28,702 nt of DNA from a virus. Below the pieces are notes generated by a model. That model saw nothing but the letters and a program-made list of their open reading frames with translations, had not been told where the DNA came from and did not search any database. The position numbers and the translations under genes are program-made. The stretch lies in IMG/VR virus record IMGVR_UViG_3300037502_003119, positions 1 to 28,702 of that record; one strand, 5' to 3'. Positions 5,255 to 7,467 of the stretch are shown here, piece by piece; within the stretch, counting starts at the first letter, position 1; each line of letters begins with the position of its first letter.

Positions 5255-5552
5255 TTATGCTTTTAAATGCGAAAAATGTTTTTATCAATTTGATGAATTT
5301 TTAACTGCAGCAAATCGTGATGTGCCAATTAAAAAAGCATGTCCAAAATGCAAAAAGAAAAAAATTAAACGAGATTGGCAAGCATCAAATCCTTCTTTGG
5401 CCATGGATACAACTTTAACACCTTCAAAGGTTGTTGGTAGCCAATTTAAAGAGGTAATTGATAAAATTAAAAATAATGGAATGGTTCCAAAGCGTTTTCA
5501 TTCAAAATTAGATCAAAGCGCAAGTTTAAACGCCGGAAGAATTGTTCGCTAA
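5247..5552 (+). CDS. FmdB-type zinc-ribbon protein
   Basis: This 101-residue protein opens with M-P-N-Y-A-F-K-C-x-x-C, and four cysteines (C8, C11, C32, C35) form a zinc ribbon of the FmdB/CxxC_CxxC type. The rest is polar and basic, ending in a Lys/Arg-rich tail. Family members are often called regulatory proteins, but their molecular role is poorly known; nucleic-acid or protein binding is the usual guess. It overlaps the HNH gene by 8 nt in a two-gene plus-strand unit, and its 3' end overlaps the convergent RuvC-like gene by 27 bp. Confidence 0.75.
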   Translation: MPNYAFKCEKCFYQFDEFLTAANRDVPIKKACPKCKKKKIKRDWQASNPSLAMDTTLTPSKVVGSQFKEVIDKIKNNGMVPKRFHSKLDQSASLNAGRIVR

Positions 5553-6083
5553 CATAGTTTTTAAAATAAAATAGCTATCAACTATATCTGTTATAGGATT
5601 GGATAAAGTTTTTTGTCCAAAAACTGTCATTAGATTAGTTTTAGTTTCTTTAGAAAAATATTCATACATTAGCTGTTTGTCTGCATTGCCTTTTCCGGTA
5701 GCCAATTTTTTTGCCTTTGTTGGTTCTATTATTGTAACTGGCACAGCAGCTTTATAGAGTTTATGTTTAAATATACCCATGTTTTCAGCTAAATTAAAAA
5801 TTCTACCGGTGGCATTAAATGCATAACCTTCTATAGCCACATCTGAAGCCCCTATACATAGATTTACAGCCCAATCAGATATGCTGTCAAATCTATCAAC
5901 ATCAGCTACATATTCCTGAAAAGATTCTCCAGTAATATTTGGTAAAATTTTATCAGCAAATTTTTTTGTATTTGTTAGATAATAAAAACAACAATTATTA
6001 AAATTAAAAGGTTTGCGCTCATCATATAAGCACAAGCAGGGGCAAGATATAGAATAGTCAACTCCAACCATCATATAGAACAT
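5526..6083 (-). CDS. RuvC-like Holliday junction resolvase
   Basis: The 185-residue protein has the acidic residues expected of a RuvC/RNase H-fold nuclease. These are an N-terminal V-G-V-D-Y-S (D9), a central V-A-I-E-G-Y (E85) followed by G-R-I-F-N-L-A-E-N-M-G, then K-L-A-T-G-K-G-N-A-D-K (D135), and a C-terminal I-T-D-I-V-D-S-Y (D166, D169). In RuvC these bind two metals and cut four-way junctions. A phage would use this to clear branched DNA before packaging, the job done in T4 by the unrelated endonuclease VII. Late-type octamers lie at 6087-6094 and 6192-6199. Initiation from the nearer one would begin about 6081, inside the first ATG, so Met4 or Met5 (6074, 6071) may be used. Confidence 0.8.
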   Translation of the reverse strand: MFYMMVGVDYSISCPCLCLYDERKPFNFNNCCFYYLTNTKKFADKILPNITGESFQEYVADVDRFDSISDWAVNLCIGASDVAIEGYAFNATGRIFNLAENMGIFKHKLYKAAVPVTIIEPTKAKKLATGKGNADKQLMYEYFSKETKTNLMTVFGQKTLSNPITDIVDSYFILKTMLANNSSGV

Positions 6084-6086
6084 ATA

Positions 6087-6094
6087 TATTTATA
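6087..6094 (-). promoter_or_regulatory. T4-type late promoter octamer TATAAATA
   Basis: Minus-strand TATAAATA is an exact match to the T4 late -10 element and faces the RuvC-like gene. With T4 spacing, transcription would begin near 6081, leaving almost no leader before Met4/Met5 of that gene. No other -35 motif is expected, because T4 late promoters are recognised through the octamer with phage sigma and clamp proteins. Confidence 0.5.
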
Positions 6095-6101
6095 CCTTGG
6101 C

Positions 6102-6184
6102 CAGCAGTGGTGGTTCCTTAGCATTACGATGGGTTAATACTTAGAACGGCCCAAAAGGAATGCGTGGAACTTCCACCGCTGCTG
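6102..6184. other. Strong three-tier hairpin, candidate structured RNA
   Basis: This 83-nt stretch folds as nested stems. 6102-6113 pairs with 6173-6184 (12 bp, one G-U in the plus reading). TTCC 6114-6117 pairs with GGAA 6166-6169 across a 3-nt bulge. GCATT 6121-6125 pairs with AATGC 6159-6163. TGGG 6130-6133 pairs with CCCA 6150-6153 around a 16-nt loop. An alternative TTCCTT (6114-6119)/AAGGAA (6155-6160) pairing competes with part of this. It has no uridine tract, so it is not an ordinary terminator. The strand is undecided: the G-U pair favours a plus-strand RNA, but a minus-strand late-type octamer (6192-6199) would start transcription at about 6186, just at the foot of the stem. No known RNA family is recognised. 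Confidence 0.6.
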
Positions 6185-6191
6185 ACATAAT

Positions 6192-6199
6192 TATTTATC
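6192..6199 (-). promoter_or_regulatory. Late promoter variant GATAAATA upstream of the hairpin
   Basis: GATAAATA on the minus strand differs from the T4 consensus at the first position, the same variant as the well-placed site at 18740-18747. Initiation about 6 nt downstream (near 6186) would give a transcript whose 5' end starts the 6102-6184 hairpin and continues into the RuvC-like gene. Confidence 0.4.
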
Positions 6200-6211
6200 A
6201 CTTAAATTTTA

Positions 6212-6219
6212 TATAAATA
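6212..6219 (+). promoter_or_regulatory. T4-type late promoter TATAAATA for the structural gene at 6239
   Basis: This is an exact TATAAATA. T4 spacing puts the start near 6225, giving a leader of about 14 nt that contains the Shine-Dalgarno AAAGGA before the ATG at 6239. The fit of octamer, leader and ribosome site makes this the best-supported late promoter in the window. Confidence 0.75.
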
Positions 6220-6238
6220 TTTTAACAAAGGATAAAAT

Positions 6239-7345
6239 ATGGCAGTATATTACTGGACCGGAGCAGTTAGCGCAGACCCAAACAATTTACAAAATTGGAC
6301 TCTTTGGTGGCAACCTGGAGCAACTTTTTTTGTCTCGGCAACCTCTAAACCCGTCTGGGGATCTGATATCAGATTTGTCAAATGGGCAACTTCTGGAGCT
6401 CAACAATATCCCATTTTTGGCCCAAGTGGAACATTAACTGGAACTGCTGGCAATCCTTCAAGCACTCTTGGTATTAGATATTTAAATTCAGTAAAAATAG
6501 ATGCTGATTATGAAAAAAATATAGGAACTTCTACAGATTATTTTGTTGTATCACCTTCTAATGTAATTTTTGATAAAGCAGCAAATGGTTGGACTGCTTG
6601 TTATTTGCATACAACTACTCTTTTTAATGGTGCAGACCCCGTAATAACCCCGCAAACTGGAGCTGAGCCTTCTGCATCAGTTTATTTAAAAGGAGTTGGT
6701 CAATTTATAGAATCTACAACAGCAACACCATCAAAGTTTAATTTTTATCTTTACAATTTTGATGGATCAGTAAAAGTTTATAATACATTATCATCATCAA
6801 CTTATAATTTTGATACAACAAGTCAAATTGCTAATGATATGATAATTAATGGACAGTCTAGTCGTATTAATATAACAAAGGGATTTGCATTACAAAATGA
6901 TGGTATTTTGCGAATGAATAATGGAACTCTATCTACGCAATCATTATATTTTACTGCGCCCGGTATATGTGGTTCTTCGGGTCCATCAGAACTTACTAGT
7001 ACTACAATGAAGTTGGTTACATCTGGAACAAATGTAAATTCTCAAAGTATTAACGTAGATCATGGTGTTGATTTTGCAGATTTGCAGATGAATTCTGGAA
7101 CAATAAATTTTGGTAATGTTGGTCAAAATGATGGTTGCAGAATATTGCAAGGAACTATGTTAGCAACTACATGCAGAATGAACATTTCAGATACAGCAGA
7201 TGTTTCTATATTGGCTCCATTTTCTGGTAATCAGGGATTTGCAATAAAAAGTGATACCACTAACGTTATGCCAATTTATTTTAAAGGAAATTATAAAATT
7301 TCTGCAAACGATACAACATATAGTTATCCGGGTGGTGGGACATAA
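6239..7345 (+). CDS. Putative virion structural protein, beta-rich
   Basis: This is a 368-residue, Ser/Thr/Asn/Gly-rich protein with no charged clusters or catalytic motif. It opens with M-A-V-Y-Y-W-T-G-A-V-S, resembling the Y-W-V-G-G type N termini of phage structural proteins of beta-solenoid character. The body alternates short polar and hydrophobic stretches as in beta-helical tail or capsid-surface proteins. A late promoter and an AAAGGAT ribosome site precede it, and a strong terminator follows 13 bp after the stop, so it is a single-gene late transcript. The structural assignment is inferred from composition and late control; the exact position in the particle is unknown. Confidence 0.65.
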   Translation: MAVYYWTGAVSADPNNLQNWTLWWQPGATFFVSATSKPVWGSDIRFVKWATSGAQQYPIFGPSGTLTGTAGNPSSTLGIRYLNSVKIDADYEKNIGTSTDYFVVSPSNVIFDKAANGWTACYLHTTTLFNGADPVITPQTGAEPSASVYLKGVGQFIESTTATPSKFNFYLYNFDGSVKVYNTLSSSTYNFDTTSQIANDMIINGQSSRINITKGFALQNDGILRMNNGTLSTQSLYFTAPGICGSSGPSELTSTTMKLVTSGTNVNSQSINVDHGVDFADLQMNSGTINFGNVGQNDGCRILQGTMLATTCRMNISDTADVSILAPFSGNQGFAIKSDTTNVMPIYFKGNYKISANDTTYSYPGGGT

Positions 7346-7386: not shown

Positions 7387-7394
7387 TTTTGATG

Positions 7395-7467
7395 CTCCTC
7401 CGACTGGGTTCGAACCAGTGACCCGAGAGTTAACAGCTCTCTGCTCTACCAACTGAGCTACAGAGGA
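7395..7467 (-). tRNA. tRNA-Asn (anticodon GUU)
   Basis: The 73-nt gene folds into a full cloverleaf. The 7-bp acceptor stem (7461-7467 with 7396-7402) has one T-G pair. The D arm is GCTC/GAGC-like, the 5-bp anticodon stem GAGAG/CTCTC holds the loop CTGTTAA (anticodon GTT), and the T arm is ACTGG-TTCGAAC-CCAGT. The discriminator base is G, as usual for tRNA-Asn, and the 3' CCA is not encoded. It lies 7 nt after the RNR stop on the same strand and before the terminator, so it is probably cut from the RNR transcript. A phage tRNA for AAC/AAU codons would suit an Asn-rich, AT-rich proteome. Confidence 0.96.

Follow-up and report, generated by a model that had tools for sequence, protein, structure and literature searches.

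The tRNA region of phage T4 gives rise to two stable RNAs of unknown role, RNAC and RNAD (PMC3014915). In phage HK022, the nascent put RNA folds into two stem-loops (~70 nt) and occurs in two copies, at early promoters; it binds RNA polymerase and acts in cis against pausing and termination. Its position can vary, from the promoter itself to ~270 nt downstream (PMC9378689), and it is indifferent to the gene that follows. In the long early transcripts of T4 genes e, soc, 49 and I-TevI, hairpins hide the ribosome binding site (PMC3014915), and gene 49 is also a Holliday junction resolvase gene (PMC3014915). MalH-type mRNA-derived small RNAs lie within a message and have a presumed second role (PMC8081044).

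Like RNAC and RNAD, the hairpin described here would be a small phage RNA encoded beside tRNA genes, but a T4-type late octamer, a long irregular hairpin, a conserved loop and another place in the genome set it apart from them by description. With put it shares the traits of a structured nascent RNA near a promoter, at variable distance and indifferent to the following gene; it has, however, one long stem, one copy and a late-type octamer, and the single long stem, in place of the two stem-loops of put, is seen in all families of the element. The start-site-sequestering hairpins of T4 likewise stand beside a late promoter (PMC3014915), but here the stem begins at the late octamer and stops before the start region: its outer helix P1 ends at 6100, and the RuvC-like gene downstream starts at 6083 or 6074, outside the pairing. 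The difference from MalH-type RNAs is that the RNA segment persists in genomes without the surrounding ORF (PMC8081044).

The hairpin and its surroundings

The window, meaning the whole stretch of DNA analysed, is a 28.7-kb virus contig (an IMG/VR record) of a T4-like phage. It encodes a family B DNA polymerase, a UvsX-like recombinase, a replicative helicase, a primase, a RuvC-like resolvase, ThyX and a class II ribonucleotide reductase. On one side of the hairpin lies the RuvC-like gene (minus, 5526-6083), on the other a gene that runs on the plus strand from 6239 (Table 1). The latter (6239-7345) encodes a structural-looking protein, whose N-terminus is similar to a minus-strand protein of contig L141 (MATYYWTGA...); it has no Pfam or PHROG match, and no relatives were recovered when it served as query. 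Elsewhere on the minus strand are a tRNA-Asn (GTT) gene (7394-7467), which many relatives also have just before the element, and a gene (674-1780) for a long protein rich in proline, in which EPQPITPRIPGIP-type units recur.

Table 1. Positions of the element, its helices and the neighbouring signals in the window.
Feature	Position	Strand	Basis or remark
Structured RNA element, 93 nt	6095..6187	-	Whole model match, R2 77.7 bits
P1 5' arm	6173..6186	-	Fold and alignments
P1 3' arm	6100..6113	-	Fold and alignments
P2 5' arm UUCC	6166..6169	-	Fold and alignments
P2 3' arm GGAA	6114..6117	-	Fold and alignments
P3 5' arm GCAUU	6159..6163	-	Fold and alignments
P3 3' arm AAUGC	6121..6125	-	Fold and alignments
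P4 5' arm UGGG	6150..6153	-	Fold and alignments
P4 3' arm CCCA	6130..6133	-	Fold and alignments
Apical loop motif UCUAAGUA, consensus UC(G/U)AAG(U/C)A	6138..6145	-	Loop comparison, 49 sequences
T4-type late-promoter octamer GATAAATA	6192..6199	-	Predicted +1 at G6186, first base of P1
Second late-promoter octamer TATAAATA, downstream of hairpin	6087..6094	-	Predicted +1 at 6081
Divergent octamer TATAAATA for gene at 6239, outside element	6212..6219	+	Octamer scan
RuvC-like Holliday junction resolvase gene, downstream of element	5526..6083	-	Start more likely ATG at 6074

On the minus strand, which is the sense strand of the element, P1 comprises 14 positions with one C.A mismatch. All the stems named in a previous sequence-only reading are found in the window sequence; the competing TTCCTT/AAGGAA pairing that it also listed is present too, but is not the conserved pairing. 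The minimum free energy is -34.7 kcal/mol for the minus strand and -39.8 kcal/mol for the plus strand, and none of 200 dinucleotide shuffles matches the stability of the native fold on either strand. Past P1 the sense strand goes on CCAAGGUAUAAAUA; the GC-rich stem followed by a U run of an intrinsic terminator is not found there, nor was any terminator or other 3' end signal seen after P1. The RNA may therefore never occur except at the 5' end of a longer message.

By kind, the element belongs with the structured RNAs of phages; the family appears to be new, and its coding and non-coding lives are unusual. At the gathering threshold, Rfam 15 matched only a tRNA elsewhere in the window, while a permissive search of 5950-6350 gave at best 18.3 bits against a threshold of 108. 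The same collection gave no match at the element in seven relatives, and its ribozyme models (the described self-cleaving classes) were not among the matches for the window or these relatives. The element was not found in the literature searched, which left out bioRxiv and most subscription papers.

Distribution, covariation and strand

A search with the RuvC-like protein retrieved 73 viral contigs. At 46 of the 73 RuvC loci, the stretch immediately before RuvC forms a hairpin of this plan, which ends ~15-20 nt ahead of the start codon. At 21 others, the element was detected with a model made from family B; there it lies within a protease ORF, ~700 nt before RuvC. At the other six the contig ends within ~650 nt upstream of RuvC. 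The element is kept in every related locus that reaches far enough to contain it. The neighbours vary: it stands before fibre-like genes in three contigs, with RuvC 2.4 kb further on (L126, L134, L135), and before another gene in two, ~1 kb before RuvC (L314, L315). A gene-blind scan of IMG/VR for the late octamer plus the loop motif again arrived at RuvC-like genes.

Two families, told apart by sequence, were distinguished: the window-like family A, with 17 distinct sequences, and family B, with 19. Model R2, built from 32 intergenic A and B sequences only, the window included, scores the window at 77.7 bits (E 2.4e-17 for its contig), and R1, built without the window, still detects the element there (31.1 bits, E 4e-5). 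The window element has the four nested helices and the UC(G/U)AAG(U/C)A loop that define the R2 family. In 20 phage contigs that measure 14-137 kb, R2 finds exactly one copy per contig. The model also detects a distant intergenic family D (L297, L305, L307, L314 and L315; E 3e-5 to 2e-3 in 174 kb). The RuvC of these phages was retrieved with the L204 protein as query, which shares 47% identity with the RuvC of the window.

All family members are metagenomic contigs, and the element is shared by a sizeable set of uncultured T4-like phages. R2 finds no element in the isolates Mosig, pf16, Cr30 and Melnitz, and neither megablast nor distant blastn against phage records returned a relative. The core pattern matched 29 times in 84,980 bacterial and archaeal genomes, none of the matches being supported by R2, and these are taken as chance. 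In G021, a first-look genome search missed a D-type element to which R2 gives 31.1 bits in L307; absence from that first-look search is therefore weak evidence.

Other structures were noticed in more remote contigs. In L203 and L204, directly upstream of RuvC, and also in L241, a long stem with an apical CGAAGUA lies between two late-type octamers; the L203/L204 stem differs from that of the element and receives no R2 score, and the hairpin resembles the element in a remote form. L253 and L257 carry a different structured region ~140 nt before RuvC, after a late-type octamer, with an outer stem GUCCCCACA/UGUGUGGGGA around a part that folds as two hairpins. At ~140 nt before RuvC in L293 and L295 there is another large hairpin, whose outer stem differs in both arms from one contig to the other (CACUUGGG/CCCAAGUG and CACGCGG/CCGCGUG). 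Very stable inverted repeats (-45.7 and -43.7 kcal/mol), apparently within HNH-type genes, precede RuvC by ~400 nt in L194 and ~300 nt in L195. Three relatives carry a permuted (two-piece) tmRNA gene with the tag ANIKAAPMRMAA, which follows phage tRNA genes and lies immediately before the element (L041 2603-2910, L045 2623-2930, L048 810-1117), called by ARAGORN and by Rfam RF04321 above threshold. Two-piece tmRNAs are known in aquatic T4-like phages (PMC9004378), which these matches fit; they may also hint at a betaproteobacterial host.

The fold is upheld by covariation. In plain alignments, 8 of 29 pairs of family A and 18 of 29 pairs of family B show pair-keeping changes on both sides; 95.5% (A) and 91.8% (B) of the cells are paired, as against 27-57% and 34-47% in controls whose partners were slid by 1-3 columns. 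In the joint alignment, with 49 distinct sequences, each of the 28 modelled pairs shows two-sided pair-keeping changes (295 such cells), with 91.5% of cells paired versus 34-46% after sliding and a covariation score of 0.618 versus 0.056-0.129; this alignment is model-fitted, and so biased to structure. The same holds for all of alignments A4 to A8, while A2 and A3 are not model-fitted, although the structures used for their counts were defined manually. When MAFFT and RNAalifold were applied to the two families at once, P1 was misaligned and only six pairs emerged; A and B were then aligned apart and afterwards to a model. The sequence-only reading had proposed a candidate new structured RNA, to be checked by covariation and by an Rfam scan: homologous regions do retain the fold with massive compensatory change, and the lack of any Rfam match fits the word "new". 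That a selected RNA exists seems to us virtually certain from these comparisons.

The tolerated mismatches point to the strand. Read on the RuvC-sense strand, the separate alignments contain 63 G-U against 13 A.C, and the joint alignment 69 against 16 (~4:1), made up of 56 to 11 in families A and B, 8 to 0 in the protease versions and 5 to 5 in four distant ones. Such an excess of G-U over A.C implies that an RNA of this strand is selected, and not the DNA or an antisense RNA. The selected molecule is thus very probably RNA of the minus strand. Its best-conserved feature is the apical loop UC(G/U)AAG(U/C)A, which is almost invariant: TCGAAGTA occurs in 38 of the 49 sequences and TCGAAGCA in 5, the six others having one or two changes.

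Late-type octamers and the protease version

In T4, a late promoter is an 8-bp TATA box placed roughly one helical turn before the start (PMC2988020). Among the 32 A and B sequences that have enough upstream DNA and the element directly upstream of RuvC, the octamer NNTAAATA precedes the first paired base by 5 nt in 29 and by 6 nt in 3, which places the predicted beginning of the transcript at the foot of the stem. Within the window, TATAAATA is weakly enriched (5 seen, 2.7 expected), and conservation of the octamer at a fixed spacing in relatives is the better evidence. We infer the exact +1 from the geometry of T4 late promoters. It is likely that the octamer at 6192-6199 is used to transcribe the element.

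In most A and B members, a second octamer follows the hairpin. In the window this octamer (6087-6094) probably serves RuvC without the hairpin; it would start the RuvC message inside the annotated first ATG, so that the true start is probably the ATG at 6074. The second octamer is absent from L135 and L137, where the downstream gene therefore probably relies on the transcript of the element. The sequence-only reading had placed the hairpin between divergent promoters, with a minus-strand start at ~6186. The two octamers that it described, at 6192-6199 and past the other end, are present, but both lie on the minus strand and point to RuvC, and divergence exists only through a third octamer, the plus-strand TATAAATA at 6212-6219 for the gene at 6239. 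The start it predicted agrees with the strand indicated by covariation and with the octamer spacing.

In the protease version, the host gene encodes a trypsin-like protease with a lipoprotein-type leader, and R2, although made from non-coding versions only, recovers this coding form with per-contig E of 1e-6 to 1e-7. Across 27 distinct protease genes, codons that specify one and the same residue differ in 12% of comparisons in the hairpin; outside it, at positions equally conserved, the figure is 37%, and no other sliding window falls below 27%. Codons of the protease 5' leader are also low (7-18%), and the constraint may therefore reach upstream of the hairpin. The intergenic versions were considered as coding sequence too and rejected: their lengths spread evenly over the three frames, and stops occur in most frames.

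A protease protein query recovered only four loci. Distant phages also carry a protease upstream of RuvC, and in 14 of 15 of these outgroup proteases no outlying fold was found at the homologous codons (z above -3). In the fifteenth, L238, the stretch from leader to protease of a distant trypsin-like gene, ~770 nt before RuvC, forms a hairpin of -51.5 kcal/mol whose sequence is unrelated to that of the element. The protein alignment passes through the stretch coded by the hairpin into a C-V-G motif, whose codons the 3' arm of family D resembles; the RNA was thus perhaps born in the gene. The comparison suggests that it arose in the protease gene and outlasted its loss, while another possible origin is that the gene took up an RNA element. 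We hold only tentatively, at a little short of evenly balanced belief, that the RNA leads a double life, as a stand-alone non-coding RNA in some phages and as part of a protease ORF in others, selected as RNA in both.

How the RNA may act

The explanation that we favour, on which our belief is evenly divided, is a late-transcribed structured RNA that is independent of any one gene and acts through its loop. Transcription from the octamer at 6192-6199 would begin on the first paired base of P1, so that the 5' end of the RNA would be closed in a stem of 12-14 bp, with the nearly invariant loop displayed at the tip. Carried on an irregular stem, the loop would be offered to a partner, either a protein or another RNA through loop pairing; the paired 5' end would lengthen the lifetime of the RNA. 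The start of transcription, the independence and the action in trans are all deduced from comparison. Since the neighbouring gene changes while the RNA stays, the element behaves as a unit of its own and not as the leader of one gene, and independence from any one gene is rather probable. Its presence within the protease mRNA in one branch implies that the function does not conflict with a place inside a message. A single copy, a variable neighbour and a near-invariant loop argue for an RNA acting via its tip, most simply in trans, though we put trans action at evenly balanced at best.

The main competitor, which we rate as possible but somewhat improbable, is a cis-acting leader of late mRNAs that is likewise indifferent to the gene it precedes: a protective 5' stem, a processing site of the RNase III type, or a put-like antitermination RNA. 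The predicted start on the first paired base would suit such a leader, as would the constant position of the element near the head of a late transcript, with following genes reached without an intervening terminator and with no 3' end signal after P1. The variable promoter distance at which HK022 put works (PMC9378689) parallels the intergenic and ORF versions seen here, and in L135 and L137 there is no second octamer. Yet only one copy is found per contig, despite the many late transcripts of such phages, and neither 5' protection nor RNase III needs an almost invariant loop. Moreover, RuvC usually has its own octamer past the hairpin, and in the protease ORF ribosomes would unfold the stem, while cleavage would destroy the message. 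A leader or translational operator specific to RuvC, for example for autoregulation, is improbable. This idea, raised in the sequence-only reading as a 5' leader regulating the RuvC-like gene, draws on the window and the 46 of 73 loci where the element ends ~15-20 nt before the RuvC start; it is countered by the many relatives in which the two are separated by 0.7 kb (protease), ~1 kb (L314/L315) or 2.4 kb (fibre genes), the same RNA preceding other genes or sitting in the protease ORF. In addition, the octamer and predicted start that RuvC usually has of its own lie downstream of the hairpin, and its start region is outside the stem.

The same reading had also allowed for a DNA element. A long inverted repeat beside a resolvase gene, able to fold on both strands, could be a cruciform, a packaging or origin site, or a resolvase substrate, selected as a double-stranded inverted repeat. 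A DNA hairpin, however, would not be expected to tolerate G-U about four times more than A.C on one strand, and the internal loops and the apical loop are conserved on that RuvC-sense strand; we consider this explanation very improbable. Least credible of all is a functionless, decaying remnant of the protease gene: a protease does occupy the same place in distant relatives, and the 3' arm does resemble C-V-G codons, but pairing has been kept through 295 two-sided changes in versions with lengths even over three frames and stops in most frames, which contradicts decay.

Few phage RNAs have covariation support this strong. With non-coding and protease-ORF forms at one locus, the origin of an RNA gene is open to comparative study alone. 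If the RNA acts in trans, it would be a new phage regulator working through an 8-nt loop; if it acts in cis, it would be a new kind of late-mRNA leader. Should its double life be true, it would be a clear example from nature of a functional RNA that outlived the gene around it or was absorbed by that gene.
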